Shown: in pieces, positions 3,377 to 36,916 of the stretch
Position numbering within the stretch: the first letter of the stretch is position 1
Layout of the letters: each line of letters starts with the position of its first letter
DNA from: a virus
IMG/VR virus record: IMGVR_UViG_3300046002_003599
Span: 1-37,549 of that record
DNA: 37,549 bases
Strand: one strand, 5' to 3'
Translations under genes and position numbers: made by a program
The notes under the pieces: generated by a model
Database searches by the model: none
The model's input: only the letters and a program-made list of their open reading frames with translations
What the model was told of the DNA's origin: nothing

Positions 3377-3886
3377 TTAACAAAATGTATCTATTAATAA
3401 TTTAGCGTATTTATTTACGTCTTTGAATTTAAGTACCTCTTTGTTATCAGCAAAAAAAGGCTCTAAAATCAAACAAGGTGCATCCATAAGTTTAAAAAAC
3501 CAATATCCCCTATCGGCTTTCGTTGCTATCGGTTTAGCACCACGATTAACAGTTTGATAGGTGCTACTAACATTTTTACTAAATAGTTCAGCATATCGCT
3601 TCCCTACGCTTGACGAGTGCCAATACAAACCCTCGCATCCCTCTGCTTTGCCGTTAAAAGAGTTGTAATGCAATTCAATTACTAAAGTGTAACCTTTGCC
3701 GTTTATTTGCTTAGACAGTTCCACCATTTTTTCGTAATAATTACCTTTTGTTGAACGGTAATAAATATCGAAAGGAAGTAATTTAACTACTTCGCTATTG
3801 TATTTAAACTCTGATTGTTTTAGTAGGTTTGAAAATGCACCTTGCTCTATTGAATCGTGCCCTACTACTATTGCTATTTTGTTCAT
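3377..3886 (-). CDS. N-acetylmuramoyl-L-alanine amidase (endolysin, Amidase_3 family)
   Basis: 169 aa, a full single amidase domain. Candidate zinc ligands are H10 (VVGHDS), E26 and H73 (VIELHYNS); the catalytic glutamate is E142 (LILEPFF). The enzyme cuts the amide bond between muramic acid and the stem peptide. No signal peptide or cell-wall binding domain is present, so a holin is expected to release it; several candidate membrane proteins are encoded at 6.8-8.2 kb and nearby. Spanin-like genes follow directly. Confidence 0.85.
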   Translation of the reverse strand: MNKIAIVVGHDSIEQGAFSNLLKQSEFKYNSEVVKLLPFDIYYRSTKGNYYEKMVELSKQINGKGYTLVIELHYNSFNGKAEGCEGLYWHSSSVGKRYAELFSKNVSSTYQTVNRGAKPIATKADRGYWFFKLMDAPCLILEPFFADNKEVLKFKDVNKYAKLLIDTFC

Positions 3887-6568: not shown

Positions 6569-6587
6569 ATTGCTTATTTAAGTTAAG

Positions 6588-6614
6588 CAAACGTACAAAA
6601 TTAAATTGAAACAA
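6588..6614 (-). promoter_or_regulatory. Bacteroidota-type promoter for the metallophosphoesterase gene
   Basis: Minus strand TTG at 6614-6612, a 16-base spacer (slightly short), then TACGTTTG at 6595-6588. It lies directly below the terminator at 6631-6657, repeating the terminator-then-promoter layout seen at 5.4 kb. Confidence 0.6.
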
Positions 6615-6630
6615 AATAATATTTGTAAAT

Positions 6631-6657
6631 AAAAAAACCACCTCGTTTGAAGTGGTT
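6631..6657 (-). terminator. Rho-independent terminator of the predicted small RNA
   Basis: Minus strand AACCACTTC (6657-6649) pairs with GAGGTGGTT (6644-6636), 9 bp with one G-U, AAAC loop, followed by TTTTT. It ends the transcript started at about 6758. Confidence 0.75.
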
Positions 6658-6760
6658 ATAATACTAAAGAATTAGCGAGTACGTATATTTGCCTCTTTAC
6701 TGTGAGTACTACGCCTCCCGTATTACTCTAATTCCATTACTTCAGTAAAAGTAATTAGTT
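6631..6760 (-). ncRNA. predicted small structured RNA of about 125 nt
   Basis: No reading frame of note lies here, yet the segment has its own promoter (6765-6795) and a strong terminator (6631-6657). The minus-strand RNA can form: a 7-bp hairpin (6755-6749 with 6742-6736); a 10-bp hairpin with one mismatch and loop GGAGG (6728-6719 with 6713-6704); a closing helix GAATTA/TAATTC (6734-6729 with 6674-6669) that encloses that hairpin; and the terminator stem. It matches no RNA family I know and is not a tRNA (no T-arm or CCA end). The GGAGG loop resembles a Shine-Dalgarno sequence. Confidence 0.55.
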
Positions 6761-6764
6761 TCTG

Positions 6765-6795
6765 CAAAATTACAAAACCTTTTTTAAACCACCAA
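6765..6795 (-). promoter_or_regulatory. Bacteroidota-type promoter for the predicted small RNA
   Basis: Minus strand TTG at 6795-6793, 20-base spacer, TAATTTTG at 6772-6765. It starts 8 bases after the stop of the 91-aa membrane gene and is followed by no gene before the terminator at 6631-6657. Confidence 0.65.
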
Positions 6796-6802
6796 ACTTT
6801 TT

Positions 6803-7078
6803 TTAATAAATCGTATCACTTTCTGAAATTCGTATTAAAGAATCATTCTCCAACTGCATAGTTTCAACAACTTTTAAGTTGCTTTCTATCTTTACTTTAT
6901 AAATATCAATGGTTTGAACGCATTTAGAAAGGTCTTGTTTAACGTTATTACTCGGAATAGTAGAAACGTTAGTAGGATGCCAAACAACCTCTTTATACAC
7001 TCTCTGTTCTTTTGGAAAGGTAATGTACCCTACAAAGAAAATAAACCCTGATACACAAAATCCTAATACTGTCTTCAT
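6803..7078 (-). CDS. membrane-anchored hypothetical protein
   Basis: 91 aa. An N-terminal hydrophobic helix (TVLGFCVSGFIFFVGYITF) is followed by a polar extracytoplasmic part with a helical end (IYKVKIESNLKVVETMQLEN). The Cys at position 8 is not in a good lipobox. It is last in a run of small membrane genes downstream of the tail fibres, next to a TM/coiled-coil gene, so a lysis role (spanin partner) is possible but unproven. Confidence 0.55.
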   Translation of the reverse strand: MKTVLGFCVSGFIFFVGYITFPKEQRVYKEVVWHPTNVSTIPSNNVKQDLSKCVQTIDIYKVKIESNLKVVETMQLENDSLIRISESDTIY

Positions 7079-8203: not shown

Positions 8204-9721
8204 TTATGATATTTTAATTAATGATGTATAACTACCCGCGTCGGTTACACCCGTTGTCGGTGATGTTCCAAATCCAACTGCTGGGATAAATGTTCCACTT
8301 CCTGAAAATGTCACTTCGCCCTCAATTGTCATAACACATGATATACCCGCACTTGCACCCGTTACACCAATAGCGCTTGTTACATTACCGTAGGCTATTT
8401 GATTTGTATTTGGAAATGTATTTTGCTTTGCACCGTTTGAAGTCCAACCTATAACCGTAACGGGTGCAGTTCCTAATAATCCAAATTGACAATTACCTGA
8501 CGTTGCTAATCCACTCAATGTATAACGACAATAGAATCGATATGTACCCGCAACAACATTATGAGCCGTACCCGTTAATGATTGCAAAGCCGTTGTACTT
8601 GTTAATGCGTGTGAAGATGCTAATTGTATGAAATCTTCTTTGTTTTGTTTAGCATTTAAAGCCGTATTAACCGTATTTTGGTCTACTGCTCCGTCGGTGT
8701 TACTTCCTAAAGAAGTGTATAGTTTTGCAATACCTTTAACGGTAGGTGTTGCGTCGGGTACTGTTACACCCGCAATAGCATTATCTACATATATTTTCTG
8801 TACATAAGTTAAATTATCGTAATCTGCTGAAAAATCTATAAGACCAACTAAACCTTTATCCCCTACATTTCCTATAACCTTTATATTGTCTAAAGATATA
8901 TCAAATCCCGTATCTGTACCCACACCATCTGAACAAAACAAAGTCAATAAATCTTTTCTAAGTCTAACAAACGATAATGCTCCCGTTGTGTTATCTTTGT
9001 GTGATAAACCATATAATGAACCTCCATCAGGGTCATTTATAAATATTTCAAAAGTAGTATCCCCATATTCGGTATTGTTACTAAATATTCGTCTTGGAAT
9101 ATAGCTAATAGTATCTTCTTGAAATTCAATATCTTTTGTAGTAGTATTACCCTCTGTTAAAACTTCTTCTAAATTTGGAGTAGTTCCACCACCCGCAACA
9201 AACTCCAACCCCGTTTCATCGGCTTTAACCGCTACAACTTTTGAACCTTGTCCCGTATAACTTGCGGGTACGTCGGTTAATTCGATGAACTCGGTAACAC
9301 CACCGCCACCGCCCGTTATAGTAATAGTTACACTATCGTCACCGTTATTAACAACCGTTGCACCATCAAAAATAAGTTTGTTAACGTTTGAAATAACAGT
9401 TTCTCCTTCTTCTTGAACTCGTAAGTTAAAATCTAATACCGCACCGCTTTCATTCCACGCTGGAAAGTTTAATTCTTCTAAACGTAAAAGTAAATCTTCT
9501 ATTGATAACCACCCCGTTTCTGGTGTACCGCCCTCACTTGCGTAAACTGTAATATCAGCTAATTGGTAACTGTTTGTAGTAGCACCGCCTTGCGAAACAA
9601 TTACAAATCTATCACCATCTGTATCAACTTGTAATTTACTAAAGCTAAAATCAGCGGGGACATCGGATGCAATAAACTTCCAAACTTTGTTACTATATTT
9701 TGTAATTGATAATGTTGCCAT
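8204..9721 (-). CDS. tail fibre / receptor-binding protein
   Basis: 505 aa. The N-terminus (MATLSITKYSNKVWKF) should attach to the tail. A Gly-rich break (GGGGG near residue 137) precedes short fibre-like segments, including TEFIELTDVPASYTGQGSKV and the TPTVKGIAKLY type seen in many phage fibres. The last 130 residues look like a beta-sandwich or C1q-like trimer head (GTYRFYCRYTLSG, GVTGASAGISCVMTIEG). It is the last and longest of three fibre/appendage genes and so is the best candidate for host-receptor recognition. Confidence 0.7.
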   Translation of the reverse strand: MATLSITKYSNKVWKFIASDVPADFSFSKLQVDTDGDRFVIVSQGGATTNSYQLADITVYASEGGTPETGWLSIEDLLLRLEELNFPAWNESGAVLDFNLRVQEEGETVISNVNKLIFDGATVVNNGDDSVTITITGGGGGVTEFIELTDVPASYTGQGSKVVAVKADETGLEFVAGGGTTPNLEEVLTEGNTTTKDIEFQEDTISYIPRRIFSNNTEYGDTTFEIFINDPDGGSLYGLSHKDNTTGALSFVRLRKDLLTLFCSDGVGTDTGFDISLDNIKVIGNVGDKGLVGLIDFSADYDNLTYVQKIYVDNAIAGVTVPDATPTVKGIAKLYTSLGSNTDGAVDQNTVNTALNAKQNKEDFIQLASSHALTSTTALQSLTGTAHNVVAGTYRFYCRYTLSGLATSGNCQFGLLGTAPVTVIGWTSNGAKQNTFPNTNQIAYGNVTSAIGVTGASAGISCVMTIEGEVTFSGSGTFIPAVGFGTSPTTGVTDAGSYTSLIKIS

Positions 9722-18419: not shown

Positions 18420-18612
18420 TTGTTTTAGATTTGTTACCTCCACAACCACAACCACAATCACGTTGTTTAGGTGGATTTGTTAAAAAATCAGTTATTAATT
18501 CTTCGTTGGTTTGCTTTGTGTATTTCGCAATCCATTCACGCTTTAGTTCGTTGCTAAGTTTACAAAATGCCTTAGCATCGTCACCTGATAAAATTCTTCC
18601 AAATATTTCCAT
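18295..18612 (-). CDS. small protein with a CGCGC cysteine cluster, after the major tail protein
   Basis: 105 aa. N-terminal 45 residues are helical (ILSGDDAKAFCKLSNELKRE), followed by RDCGCGCGGNKSKTNG and a Ser/Lys-rich, probably disordered tail. The tail is encoded in the same DNA as the start of the next gene. The cysteine cluster may bind metal. Function unknown; the position fits a tail assembly factor. Confidence 0.55.
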   Translation of the reverse strand: MEIFGRILSGDDAKAFCKLSNELKREWIAKYTKQTNEELITDFLTNPPKQRDCGCGCGGNKSKTNGNITSGISSKVTESAEFVSDSGHDETNSNKRQRKSKGQKD

Positions 18613-18626
18613 TTTAGTTTTAAATT

Positions 18627-18657
18627 AAAAAAAGCAACCAAAGTTAATTGATTGCTT
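18627..18657 (-). terminator. terminator-like hairpin in the leader of the CGCGC-protein gene
   Basis: Minus strand AAGCAATC (18657-18650) pairs with GGTTGCTT (18639-18632), 8 bp with one G-U, 10-base loop, then TTTTT. It sits between the terminator/promoter-like pair at 18673-18712 and the ATG at 18612, so it is either a second terminator or an attenuator. Confidence 0.5.
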
Positions 18658-18672
18658 CTCATTCGTGTCTTG

Positions 18673-18680
18673 CAAATATA
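18673..18680 (-). promoter_or_regulatory. possible Bacteroidota-type -7 element
   Basis: TATATTTG on the minus strand just below a strong terminator. The nearest TTG (18707-18705) gives a spacer of 24, longer than usual, so this promoter is weaker evidence than the others. Confidence 0.35.
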
Positions 18681-18682
18681 AT

Positions 18683-18712
18683 AAAAAAAACCGTTGCTTT
18701 TACACAACGGTT
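18683..18712 (-). terminator. Rho-independent terminator after the major tail protein gene
   Basis: Minus strand AACCGTTG (18712-18705) pairs perfectly with CAACGGTT (18696-18689), 8-base loop, then a run of Ts. It closes the head and major tail transcript. Confidence 0.8.
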
Positions 18713-18742
18713 AACCAAAACTAAATAAATATGAAAAACTAA

Positions 18743-32679: not shown

Positions 32680-32728
32680 TTTTTATTTATTTTTAAAGTT
32701 TATATTTTGTACGTAAAAAAAACAACGA

Positions 32729-32793
32729 ACCGCTAACAAGCAATAACCTCAATTTGCCGAATCAACTAACCGCATAGGCAAACTGCGGTTATT
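32729..32793. repeat. mutually exclusive hairpins upstream of the inserted gene
   Basis: Fold 1: TAACCGCA (32767-32774) with TGCGGTTA (32784-32791), 8 bp perfect. Fold 2: AATAACC (32742-32748) and TTTGCC (32753-32758) with GGCAAA (32777-32782) and GGTTATT (32787-32793). Both use the same right arm, so only one can form. ACCGCTAAC (32729-32737) mirrors GTTAGCGGT at 32259-32267. Confidence 0.65.
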
Positions 32794-32800
32794 TATAACG

Positions 32801-33667: not shown

Positions 33668-34092
33668 GGTTTGCTAAATGATTTTAACGCTAGAGTTATC
33701 ATTGCGTTTGTATTTTCTTTTGTAGTTTGTAAATCGTATGTTTCAAAACCTCGTTTTAATAATGGAAAATCTAAAACACCTTTTTTGCAAAGTTCCGATA
33801 ATTCCGTATTGTTTAATTCGTTCATCAAATCGATGTAAAGACTATCAATGTTTAGGTCTAAAACTTGATGCAGTTTTTGTTGTGCAACATCTAAAGATTG
33901 ATAATATTTTATGTAGTGAATTAAATTGTAAATATACAACTTTGCAAAGCATATATTTTTATTAGGGTTTGTTTCTATCGATTCATTAACGAACCATAAT
34001 AGCTTATTAAAAGCCTCTGCATCGTTTGCGTTTGGTTTATTCTGATTTGATATAGTAAATCCTAATCTTTGAAGTGCGTCTTTTACTTTCAT
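33664..34092 (-). CDS. unknown protein between initiator and helicase (possible helicase loader)
   Basis: 142 aa, mostly helical (EAFNKLLWFVNESIETNPNK, IYNLIHYIKYYQSLDVAQQK). It overlaps the initiator and the helicase genes by 4 bases each, the position of lambda P-type loaders. No ATPase motif, so it would be a non-ATPase loader or a replisome accessory. Role is inferred from position only. Confidence 0.55.
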   Translation of the reverse strand: MKVKDALQRLGFTISNQNKPNANDAEAFNKLLWFVNESIETNPNKNICFAKLYIYNLIHYIKYYQSLDVAQQKLHQVLDLNIDSLYIDLMNELNNTELSELCKKGVLDFPLLKRGFETYDLQTTKENTNAMITLALKSFSKP

Positions 34093-34961
34093 AACATTCC
34101 AATTTTAGTAACGTCTTTTTGATACTTACTTACCATAGATGAATAACTGAAAGTATCAATAGTAACATCTGTTAAATTTTCACGGTCTTTTTTTGCGTTA
34201 TCAAAAGCAATTAATAAATGGTCTTTTGAAAATCCACATTGTAACAAATTCAAATAACGTTTTTTTGTTTGCTCAGGAACTTCTGATAATTTTATTTTAG
34301 GATTAAACAAATCATTAAAGTAATCTAAAAATATTTTCCAATCGATTCTTTTATCTTCCGGCAATTCACTTTCTGTATCTTTTTGCTTATAGTCTTTTTT
34401 AAGCCATGTTTTTGCGGTTAAATAAAGAGATTTATATTTTTTGTTTTGTTTATAGTTTTGTATCTTTTCAAAACAATCAAATATATCTTCTTCTTTATAC
34501 TCATTAAGCAATTTACTAAAATCTAATTCCGTAATAGACAAATGCTCAAAAGAATATATTATATTGTTATTTTGTTTTATTATACTATCAGTGCTTTGTA
34601 CTGTGCTTTCGCCTTGCTTTGTATCGTGCTTTATTAGTGCTTTGTCTAATGCTTTGTTAGGTGCTTTATCAAAATTTGATAGAGCAACTATATTGCTACT
34701 AAATTGATTTTTTGATTTTTCAACTAAGATAATTAAACCAAAATCTACTAAATCGTTTAGCGTTTCCATGTAAGTATTGTAACTTCTTATCCCAATAGCT
34801 TCTTTTGCCATTGTAGTAGGTAGTCCTAATTTATCACGCCACCCTAATCTATTGTTATGTTCAACAATAAATAAAAATAATGCACAATGATTTGGTTTGA
34901 TTTTGTCGGGGTTTTCAAAAGCAAAATCCCAAAATGAACGGGTTAATGTAAAGTAATCCAT
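34089..34961 (-). CDS. replication initiator with N-terminal winged helix, origin encoded inside
   Basis: 290 aa. N-terminal 95 residues look like a winged-helix domain (HCALFLFIVEHNNRLGWRDK, SYNTYMETLNDLVDFGLIIL). Residues about 99-124 are a linker encoded by seven heptamer repeats. The C-terminal part (SELPEDKRIDWKIFLDYFND, CGFSKDHLLIAFDNAKKDRE) resembles phage replication organisers. By analogy with lambda O, it should bind the iterons within its own gene and recruit the helicase. The leader upstream contains three hairpins. Confidence 0.7.
   Translation of the reverse strand: MDYFTLTRSFWDFAFENPDKIKPNHCALFLFIVEHNNRLGWRDKLGLPTTMAKEAIGIRSYNTYMETLNDLVDFGLIILVEKSKNQFSSNIVALSNFDKAPNKALDKALIKHDTKQGESTVQSTDSIIKQNNNIIYSFEHLSITELDFSKLLNEYKEEDIFDCFEKIQNYKQNKKYKSLYLTAKTWLKKDYKQKDTESELPEDKRIDWKIFLDYFNDLFNPKIKLSEVPEQTKKRYLNLLQCGFSKDHLLIAFDNAKKDRENLTDVTIDTFSYSSMVSKYQKDVTKIGML
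34550..34667. other. putative replication origin: seven phased heptamers plus AT-rich tract
   Basis: GTGCTTT or one-base variants begin at 34591, 34603, 34614, 34626, 34637, 34649 and 34661, so spacing is 12, 11, 12, 11, 12, 12 bp, about one helical turn. In the coding strand AAAGCAC is read in all three frames, so the repeat is conserved as DNA, not as peptide. The adjoining stretch 34550-34588 is almost pure A/T, a candidate unwinding element. The arrangement copies lambda ori inside gene O. Confidence 0.75.
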
Positions 34962-34976
34962 AATATTATTATTAAA

Positions 34977-35069
34977 GACAAAACCCCTAAAGAGCCACTA
35001 CACATCTTTAAGGGTTTGTCGGTGCTAAAATTAATTAGCAAAATTTTCCTTGTAAGCAGTGGTTTACAA
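34977..35069 (-). promoter_or_regulatory. structured leader of the replication operon with complementary loops
   Basis: Between the promoter at 35073-35102 and the initiator ATG the RNA can form: hairpin 1, TTGTAA/TTACAA (35069-35064 with 35055-35050), loop ACCACTGC; a small GCTAA/TTAGC hairpin; hairpin 3, a 15-16 base imperfect stem (35020-35006 with 34992-34977). CCACUGC in loop 1 can pair with GUAGUGG in loop 3 (7 bp, one G-U that exists only in the transcript strand). Hairpin 3 ends 16 bases before the ATG. Confidence 0.5.
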
Positions 35070-35072
35070 ATG

Positions 35073-35102
35073 CAAATCTAAGTAAAAAAAAGTTACCCGC
35101 AA
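35073..35102 (-). promoter_or_regulatory. Bacteroidota-type promoter for the replication operon
   Basis: Minus strand TTG at 35102-35100, 19-base spacer, TAGATTTG at 35080-35073. The -33 element lies inside the loop of the terminator at 35084-35117, the same terminator/promoter stacking seen at 5.4 and 6.6 kb. Confidence 0.65.
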
Positions 35103-35117
35103 AATAATTACGGGTAA
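35084..35117 (-). terminator. Rho-independent terminator after the single-strand DNA-binding protein gene
   Basis: Minus strand TTACCCG (35117-35111) pairs perfectly with CGGGTAA (35099-35093), 11-base loop, then CTTTTTTTT. Confidence 0.8.
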
Positions 35118-35797: not shown

Positions 35798-36288
35798 AAT
35801 AATTGTTTTAATGCGTTATTGTATGTGTTACTTGCATCTATTTCACATTCAAAATTTCCTAAAAATTTTTGCTTTCCATTTATTGTTATCTGCGAACGAT
35901 ATTTTTTTATTGTATTACAAAAATGAACACCTAAATACTTACTACTGCTTGATAAATGTTTTTGATTTGCATTTTCTCTTTGAGTAATTATTTCTAAATT
36001 TTCAACTCTATTGTCTTTTCTTATAAAATTTTTATGATTTATAACAATTTTATATCCATTAGGAATATGATTTAAAAAAACAATAGCAACTAAATGATGT
36101 ACATATCTTGTTTTACTTTTATTATTTTTTCTTAAAACAACAGTATCATAATTAGAAACTCCACTACTTTTTATTAAAGCAATTTCTTTTTTAGACCTTT
36201 TATAATTTAAGCTCTTTACGTTTCCTAAATTACTAACCTGATAAAGTCCTTCATACTCAGGAATGTCTTTATAAATTTCTTCTATCAT
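35794..36288 (-). CDS. HNH homing-type endonuclease with NUMOD4 and AP2-like domains
   Basis: 164 aa. NUMOD4 motif IPEYEGLYQVSNLGNVKSL at 9-27; the HNH core runs from VHHLVAIVFLNHIPNGYKI through VINHKNFIRKDNRVENLEII; residues about 115-160 form an AP2-like DNA-binding domain (KYLGVHFCNTIKKYRSQITI, GKQKFLGNF). This is the structure of free-standing homing endonucleases. It sits between ERF and the SSB-like gene but with ATGA overlaps at both ends, so it is well integrated into the operon. Confidence 0.8.
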   Translation of the reverse strand: MIEEIYKDIPEYEGLYQVSNLGNVKSLNYKRSKKEIALIKSSGVSNYDTVVLRKNNKSKTRYVHHLVAIVFLNHIPNGYKIVINHKNFIRKDNRVENLEIITQRENANQKHLSSSSKYLGVHFCNTIKKYRSQITINGKQKFLGNFECEIDASNTYNNALKQLL

Positions 36289-36800
36289 TGTAAAGTGTTT
36301 TTAAGTTGGTCTTTAAGTTTTAACGTTGCGGTTTTTTCAGCGGGTGTAAATGACGTATAAACCGTTTGTAATTCCGCTTTAGTAGTACAAGCCATTAACC
36401 TTGCGTTTAGTTTTTCAACGTTTAACGTTAAAGTAGGTTCTTTAGTACTCGCTTTATTTGCGTCGTCGTCCTCCGCTTGAAGTCCTAATAAAGATTGAAG
36501 TGTATAACGTCGATAATATGTTATTGCACTTCCTAACTTTTGAGGGTCGTTAAATTGCGTTAATTGGATTGAACTCTCAACACTCAATTCACTTTCACAA
36601 TGATAAATAATTGATTTTACCTCGTTGTTAATTATCGGTTGTAATAGTAACAATCCGTTTTTTTCTAGTAACGGTTCGACTTGCTCAATCAAACTATTAA
36701 TATCAAAATACTTTGATTTAAAGAATGGGTTTGTTTCCGTTTTAGATAACTTACCTACTTCTTTTTTTACGTTGGCTAATGCTTTTAGTAATTCTTTCAT
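36285..36800 (-). CDS. erf: ERF-family single-strand annealing protein
   Basis: 171 aa. KTETNPFFKSKYFDINSLIE, then DPQKLGSAITYYRRYTLQSL and LLGLQAEDDDAN form the ERF signature. Such proteins anneal complementary strands for recombination and genome circularisation. The C-terminus (EPTLTLNVEKLNARLMACTT onwards) is a separate helical region. First gene after a structured leader; followed by the nuclease and the single-strand DNA-binding protein. Confidence 0.85.
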   Translation of the reverse strand: MKELLKALANVKKEVGKLSKTETNPFFKSKYFDINSLIEQVEPLLEKNGLLLLQPIINNEVKSIIYHCESELSVESSIQLTQFNDPQKLGSAITYYRRYTLQSLLGLQAEDDDANKASTKEPTLTLNVEKLNARLMACTTKAELQTVYTSFTPAEKTATLKLKDQLKNTLQ

Positions 36801-36817
36801 AATTAATTTAGTTAAAA

Positions 36818-36901
36818 ATGCCTTTAAAAATTGTGTAAGGTATCAGGTTACACGCATTTTAAAGGCTAATTCTTTTTAGTTACCCCGTTTGATACCGTAA
36901 C
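36818..36901 (-). promoter_or_regulatory. structured leader of the ERF operon with two loops able to kiss
   Basis: Hairpin A: GTTAC/GTAAC (36901-36897 with 36883-36879), loop containing GGTATCA. Hairpin B: GCCTTTAAAA/TTTTAAAGGC (36866-36857 with 36829-36820), 3x3 internal loop, GTGTAA/TTACAC (36853-36848 with 36838-36833), loop CCTGATACC. TGATACC in loop B is fully complementary to GGTATCA in loop A (7 bp). Hairpin B is followed by ATTTTTAA, and the ERF ATG is 20 bases below. Confidence 0.6.
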
Positions 36902-36908
36902 TGTTTAG

Positions 36909-36916
36909 CAAAAATA
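36909..36916 (-). promoter_or_regulatory. possible -7 element of the ERF operon promoter
   Basis: TATTTTTG on the minus strand, fitting TAnnTTTG, directly above the structured leader. No TTG is seen at the right distance upstream, so the promoter is uncertain; transcription may also continue from the methyltransferase gene. Confidence 0.4.

Follow-up and report, generated by a model that had tools for sequence, protein, structure and literature searches.

The stretch of DNA analysed here, referred to as the window, is a 37,549-base virus record of a siphovirus-type phage. Its TerL is 65% identical to that of the Flavobacterium phages snusmum and hattifnatt, its head and tail genes are arranged in an order resembling theirs, and its called genes lie on the minus strand. 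The locus under study is a gap of 234 nt (6569-6802), read on the minus strand, which separates the gene for a 91-aa protein (6803-7078) from a phosphoesterase gene. The phosphoesterase and the RNA ligase that an earlier note on this DNA had placed downstream were confirmed by matches to PF00149 and PF09414, respectively. The features of the gap are listed in Table 1, together with those of two further loci in the window that are described below.

Table 1. Features of the gap, of the neighbouring genes and of two further leaders in the window.
Feature	Coordinates	Strand	Details
Promoter P1	6765..6796	-	-33 TTTG 6796-6793, 20-nt spacer, -7 TAATTTTG 6772-6765
Non-coding transcribed region, ~130 nt	6629..6764	-	predicted; promoter, terminator, no ORF, no Rfam match; predicted start near 6760, give or take a few nt
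Hairpin 1 (HP1)	6736..6755	-	AUUACUU[UUACUG]AAGUAAU; pair probability ~0.9; kissing strand UUUACUG 6749-6743
Hairpin 2 (HP2), long, imperfect	6669..6734	-	outer stem GAAUUAG/CUAAUUC; part of the MFE structure
HP2, apical part	6693..6706	-	CUC[ACAGUAAA]GAG; CAGUAAA 6702-6696; flanks AGUA (5') and GCAAA (3')
Alternative hairpin	6704..6728	-	GAGUA-A-UACG[GGAGG]CGUA-G-UACUC; probability ~0.32; competes with HP2
Intrinsic terminator	6629..6657	-	9-bp stem 6657-6636 and U7 tract; stem pair probability ~1
Promoter P2	6588..6616	-	TTTTG ... TACGTTTG; -7 TACGTTTG at 6595-6588; directly before the phosphoesterase
Calcineurin-like metallophosphoesterase, 331 aa	5573..6568	-	PF00149 4.5e-7; phrog_221 1.9e-41
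RNA ligase, 306 aa	4459..5379	-	PF09414 1.4e-16; phrog_548 1.9e-47
Second member, promoter 35103-35073	34962..35103	-	score 19.0; before the replisome-organizer gene
Second member, hairpins	34962..35103	-	HP1 UUUGUAA[ACCACUGC]UUACAAG; HP2 AAACCCUUAAAGA[UGUGUAGUGGC]UCUUUAGGGGUUU
Replisome-organizer gene	34089-34961	-	phrog_13246 5.5e-6
Third member, -7 TATTTTTG 36916-36909	36801..36916	-	score 16.0; before the Erf-like gene
Third member, HP1	36801..36916	-	AGUUAC[GGUAUCAAACGGG]GUAACU
Third member, HP2	36801..36916	-	apical GUGUAA[CCUGAUACC]UUACAC within a GCCUUUAAAA/UUUUUAAAGGC hairpin
Erf-like gene	36285-36800	-	phrog_2324 1.2e-38

Promoters of Bacteroidota follow a -33/-7 consensus, and a scan for sigma-70-type promoters was uninformative for this phylum. 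On the minus strand of the window, the pattern TTTG-N17-21-TAnnTTTG has five matches (1.3 in shuffles), all of them intergenic and with spacers of N19-20, even though intergenic sequence makes up just 8% of the window. P1 is one of these full matches, in agreement with the consensus promoter claimed for the gap. About 105 nt without an ORF lie between P1 and the terminator, which reads AACCACUUC-AAAC-GAGGUGGUU-U7 on the minus strand. The strong terminator that had been stated is present, with a 9-bp stem, a U7 tract and a pairing probability of ~1; terminator-like sites as such numbered two in 3 kb, against 1.1 in shuffles. A promoter for the next gene, said to follow at once, is indeed present right behind the terminator, but P2 is weaker than P1 and its spacer of 16-17 is shorter than those of the other promoters of the window.

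The gap RNA contains no ORF of at least 20 aa. ARAGORN and Rfam found no tRNA in it, and an Rfam search of the gap on both strands, weak matches included, returned chance-level matches only. The 6S-Flavo RNA (RF01685), which is named for Flavobacteria and comprises 108 positions, is likewise a short structured RNA; it has no match above the gathering threshold in the window, and control genomes were silent too. Inspection by eye for an anti-terminator of the riboswitch kind revealed nothing that would pair strongly with the arms of the terminator, whose own pairing has a probability of ~1. Promoter, terminator and lack of an ORF are supported computationally. The prediction of a short non-coding unit that is transcribed from a promoter and ended by a terminator of its own is well supported, and the small RNA of no known family that had been proposed stands in outline.

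The MFE structure of the gap RNA (-33.4 kcal/mol) contains two hairpins together, HP1 and HP2. HP1 corresponds to the 5' hairpin described earlier and, with a probability of ~0.9, is robust. Its loop strand UUUACUG (6749-6743) is perfectly complementary, over 7 bp, to CAGUAAA (6702-6696) in the apical loop of HP2, which would allow the two loops to kiss. When the region was shuffled 5000 times, 2-4 of the shuffles reached a kissing score like that of the gap at the right spacing.

The earlier note had overlooked this loop complementarity and, while right about the outline of a small RNA, emphasised the wrong structural feature, namely a 10-bp hairpin with a GGAGG loop. Such a hairpin can form (nine Watson-Crick pairs and one A-G mismatch, -8.5 kcal/mol), but it is a minority structure that accounts for ~0.32 of the ensemble. 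Because of this, and because no member of the family described below uses GGAGG as its kissing loop, the idea of the GGAGG loop as a target-seeking centrepiece is unsupported, and we dropped the hairpin as functional core. The closing helix proposed along with it forms with a probability of 0.15-0.39 only, and the complete fold suggested there reaches -25.2 kcal/mol versus the -33.4 kcal/mol of the MFE structure. The description of the RNA as highly structured goes too far: z is -2.8 when the terminator is included and -1.5 for the RNA body without it, whose predicted fold is not well defined.

Relatives were fetched for three genes: 80 for the phosphoesterase, 21 loci for the RNA ligase and 7 for TerL. 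When the RNA was sought by sequence in two phage genomes and the whole of 78 virus records, the terminator alone was recovered, and in L022, L031 and L039 the terminator and the next ~10-30 nt are the sole part kept, at the corresponding position upstream of the phosphoesterase. Since only the terminator was found in relatives, the RNA body appears private to the window phage at the sequence level. Phage and plasmid records yielded nothing beyond one chance-level match, exact core patterns of the gap RNA were absent from viral contigs, and no relatives came up through the 861-aa tail protein or through the 91-aa gene upstream, nor in bacterial genomes through TerL or the phosphoesterase. A 24-nt match in the L130 record was rejected as it lies inside a coding region. 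A gap in L031 was set aside as well: it holds a structured RNA and the same terminator, but no promoter. We found no evidence for a functional link of the gap RNA with the RNA ligase or the phosphoesterase, and an RNA body recognisable by sequence occupies the same place in 0 of 78 relative records. In one relative (L033), the leader before the phosphoesterase (from ~2560) contains AUAGCUACA, complementary to the loop of a terminator hairpin (UGUAGCUAU) directly before the start; this arrangement is a related pseudoknot type on the same phosphoesterase gene.

The space before the phosphoesterase is shorter than 75 nt in most relatives and reaches at least 100 nt in 14 of 76 loci, the window included. 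Some relatives have a tRNA or tRNA-like gene next to the phosphoesterase: L013 (3119-3602) has five tRNAs upstream of it and L072 (3751-3822) has one, and the gene in L055 (~3430-3640) comes with a promoter and a terminator of its own. In view of these tRNAs, found at the same place in relatives, we considered that the gap might be a decayed remnant, i.e., the promoter and terminator of a lost gene such as a tRNA, with a kissing complementarity that is coincidental. An RNA body that has no homologue in the records searched and whose structure is weak once the terminator is removed would fit such decay. However, a kissing pair at the right spacing is rare in shuffles of the region, the same genome contains two other strong members, and the gap RNA itself carries no tRNA or Rfam signal and so lends no support to a tRNA origin. 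We regard a remnant as distinctly unlikely.

These two other members came to light when we read all intergenic gaps of the window and found a matching layout behind two other promoters, with unrelated sequences and complementary loops. A detector devised after the pattern had been seen in the window (octamer TAnnTTTG, HP1, HP2 and a loop complement of at least 6) picked out just three places on the coding strand, at 6764, 35072 and 36908, each of them intergenic, compared with 0.075 in shuffled genomes. The second and third members, which precede a replisome-organizer gene and an Erf-like gene, are clearer examples than the gap copy. A kissing match on the plus strand at 8728 lies inside a gene and was taken as chance. 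Two more places in the window deserve mention. At 18462-18742 (minus strand), a terminator, a promoter and a second terminator-like hairpin directly before a small ORF form a possible attenuator without a kissing loop. At 32680-32800 (minus strand), an HP1-like hairpin, AACCGC[AGUUUGCCUAU]GCGGUU, with GGCAAAUU downstream may be a further kissing RNA; it has no obvious promoter.

We then scanned related records totalling 1.58 Mb, or 3.16 Mb when both strands are counted. At a score of at least 16, 28 cases were found versus 0.67 after shuffling; with the family geometry there were 45 versus 1.2, and 44 versus 0.6 at a score of at least 13.5, all of these counts taking in related phages and not being fully independent. 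With ten mock octamers in place of the promoter octamer, the scan gave 0.3-2.4 cases per 1000 sites, compared with 13.4 for the real one. As a check for circularity, leaders were chosen solely for having the octamer, HP1 and, 85-125 nt further downstream, an ORF, while complementarity was ignored. Among the 51 distinct loop pairs obtained in this way, 22 match by at least 6 bp, whereas swapping the partners gave a mean of 0.8 and a maximum of 4 in 2000 trials. Seven homologous leaders keep every pair of the kissing helix (100%), four of the eight pairs having changed on both sides; the whole structure exceeds all 500 shuffles, and the pairing is lost when the partners are slid by 1-3 columns. 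The loop pair GUGAGACG/CGUCUCAC of hattifnatt, for example, corresponds to GUGGAACG/CGUUCCAC in snusmum.

Members were found in the Flavobacterium phages hattifnatt9-1 (two, at 9366 and 14342), snusmum6-1 (two), sniff9-2 and 11b. None was seen in Cellulophaga phi19:3 (first 50 kb), Polaribacter P12002L or Leeuwenhoekiella Arctus_1, and single matches in Flavobacterium phage 6H and Bacteroides phage B40-8 were unconvincing. A typical member begins with the octamer, followed after 2-9 nt by HP1 (5-9 bp, loop of 6-14) and an A-rich linker of ~15-25 nt; in every member HP1 falls at the very 5' terminus of the predicted transcript. HP2 then has an outer stem of ~8-11 bp and an inner stem of 3-6 bp with the complementary loop; between the two stems is a small internal loop, which often reads GGA/AAA or AGUA/GAAA. 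This terminator-like hairpin is found ~85 nt behind the promoter, with 8-25 nt left to the start codon; a U-tract comes after it, and the ATG is ~100-111 nt after the octamer. A U-run of at least 5 precedes the ATG in 14 of 14 aligned members compared with 16% of ordinary genes, and a hairpin with a U-tract does so in 13 of 14 compared with 9%. Kissing complementarity, covariation and terminator-like placement are thus supported computationally for the family.

The genes behind the members include, besides those for the Erf-like annealing protein and the replisome organizer of the window, genes for a DnaD-like loader, a helicase, a primase-helicase, DUF6291 proteins and proteins of unknown function. 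Variants also occur, with the ATG at +144-155 or, in one member, without an adjacent ORF. The latter, at L210 4315-4847, is a kissing leader that comes after a peptidase-like lysis gene; the long non-coding stretch next to it appears to be structured and has no Rfam match. This member suggests that stand-alone versions are not unique.

An Rfam search of the family members gave no family matches, and the literature searched, which comprised open-licence papers, contained no description of such leaders. Judging from the sequences, the family looks like an undescribed group of kissing-loop leader RNAs in viruses of Flavobacterium and relatives. It would escape ordinary homology searches because it combines strong covariation with a lack of conserved sequence. 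Two observations were made alongside. The loop pair in which GUGAGAAG or GUGAGACG meets its complement has the HP1/HP2 order swapped between L157, L173 and L196 (8477) on the one side and L220, L180 and L108 (14342) on the other. In addition, a second leader type is found behind the same promoter in L166 (6580, plus strand), L169 (17241, reverse-complement offset), L185 (3168, plus strand) and L193 (11710, plus strand). In this type, the HP1 loop GUGAAG and the linker (~AACGNNAACACNAAUUU) are both conserved and the terminator is long; it lacks a kissing loop and precedes genes starting MVTKS/MVIKS.

Against this background, the gap RNA is probably an outlying, diverged member of the leader family. 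The TAnnTTTG octamer TAATTTTG (6772-6765) stands directly upstream, with a full -33 element. HP1 and HP2 start 9 and 58 nt after the octamer, within the family ranges of at most 10 nt and 40-72 nt, the loops match over 7 bp where the family requires at least 6 bp, and the junction AGUA...GCAAA resembles those of other members. On the other hand, with a score of 13.5 the gap copy is the weakest credible member: two of the seven pairs of its kissing helix are G-C, and the apical stem of HP2 has 3 bp. It also lacks a U-tract directly behind HP2, since the one present is part of another hairpin, and its first ATG comes at +196 rather than at the typical 100-111. We did not treat the position of U-tract and ATG as defining because the +144-155 variants and the ORF-less member exist. 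Covariation of the kissing pair is seen in the family, whereas the gap copy has no sequence homologue in the records searched. As kissing pairing is common to dozens of phage leaders, the gap RNA is best read as an outlier of this family and not as an isolated oddity.

In most members the terminator-like HP2 lies just before a replication or recombination gene, which makes cis-acting attenuation or antitermination the likeliest function of the family as predicted from its layout. In the nascent RNA, the loop of the 5' hairpin would pair with the apical loop of HP2, and the resulting kissing structure would decide whether the polymerase stops or runs on, either with a phage or host factor or by acting on RNA polymerase directly. 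At the gap, a minus-strand RNA of ~130 nt would start at the Bacteroidota-type P1 and end at the intrinsic terminator; a polymerase coming from P1 would fold the kissing RNA and meet this separate terminator shortly downstream. Because the separate terminator and P2 split the gap copy from its gene, most P1 transcripts would be expected to be released as a short, stable RNA of ~130 nt. Suppressed termination would instead permit readthrough into the phosphoesterase and RNA ligase genes, with P1 transcripts adding to those of P2. All evidence is computational; that the gap copy belongs to the family, is transcribed in infection and has a regulatory role, and the direction of that role, are inferences. 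The explanation as a whole, a diverged member exerting cis control of elongation, seems to us an even bet.

A rival reading is an antiterminator of the HK022 put type, in which the two-hairpin kissing RNA would bind the elongating polymerase and make it ignore terminators, at the gap the one a little further downstream, so that phosphoesterase and RNA ligase are read from P1. The put RNA binds RNA polymerase and suppresses termination with no need for a protein. The putL and putR sites share sequence, comprise ~70 nt, lie behind early promoters and act on terminators (PMC9378689). As in put, two stem-loops of a phage RNA lie close behind the promoter (PMC9378689), a likeness in gross shape only; the gap copy has a strong terminator immediately downstream, and family members head replication genes. 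Unlike put, however, the family members share no sequence and belong to another host phylum, their loops kiss, and a typical HP2 carries a U-tract right behind it and looks like a terminator itself. The put sites are described as two stem-loops, with no kissing loop (PMC9378689). We consider a put-type mechanism unlikely. Attenuation and put-like antitermination predict opposite effects of kissing mutants.

That HP1 occupies the very 5' terminus of the predicted transcript in every member is also what one would expect if hairpin and kissing fold merely stabilised mRNA ends, shielding transcripts from ribonucleases without any regulated switch. Such a role would let the sequence vary freely while pairing is kept, but it leaves the U-tract after HP2 in 14 of 14 aligned leaders and the terminator of the gap copy unexplained, and we think it very unlikely. 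The proposal of the earlier note, a stand-alone trans-acting small RNA whose exposed loops pair with phage or host mRNAs, is consistent with the gap's own promoter and terminator, with the lack of an adjacent ORF and with the L210 member, which likewise has no ORF directly behind it. Yet the two main loops are probably occupied since they are complementary to each other, the loops differ among the copies of one phage, which fits pairing in cis, and the GGAGG loop belongs to a minority fold. A trans-acting role thus appears quite improbable.

Several well-known RNAs share parts of this architecture. The phi29 pRNA is a phage RNA of ~120 nt, made from its own promoter, with two complementary loops that pair between molecules, but it is a single packaging RNA, which binds the packaging motor, whereas the family described here has several copies with different loops before different genes. 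The purine riboswitch consists of two hairpins joined by a loop-loop contact; unlike it, the gap RNA has no conserved ligand-binding core and no Rfam match. The HMP-PP (thiS) riboswitch is a metabolite-binding, terminator-embedded aptamer with a highly conserved loop (PMC6478431). The phage leaders resemble it in that a terminator hairpin in a 5' leader has a constrained loop able to join a pseudoknot with upstream sequence, the gene following close behind (PMC6478431). In contrast to the riboswitch, the loops of the phage family vary freely with only their mutual complementarity kept, and they sit before phage replication genes. No conserved aptamer or loop sequence like that of the HMP-PP riboswitch was found, and there is no Rfam match at gathering scores.

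The leader family is the more interesting result than the gap copy. Our broadest proposal, which we put forward tentatively and hold at somewhat less than even chances, is that flavobacterial phages use a novel class of kissing-loop RNAs defined by structure alone, with no conserved sequence, as switches of replication and recombination operons, i.e., as attenuators or protein-free antiterminators; the copies would be insulated from each other by private loop pairs, and the gap would represent a copy turned stand-alone by a separate terminator. With two or three copies in a genome, placed ahead of replication and recombination genes, the leader RNA makes the timing of genes in Bacteroidota phages testable in the isolates hattifnatt9-1, snusmum6-1 and 11b, and its copy-specific complementary loop pairs could also serve Flavobacterium genetic tools as insulated RNA parts.
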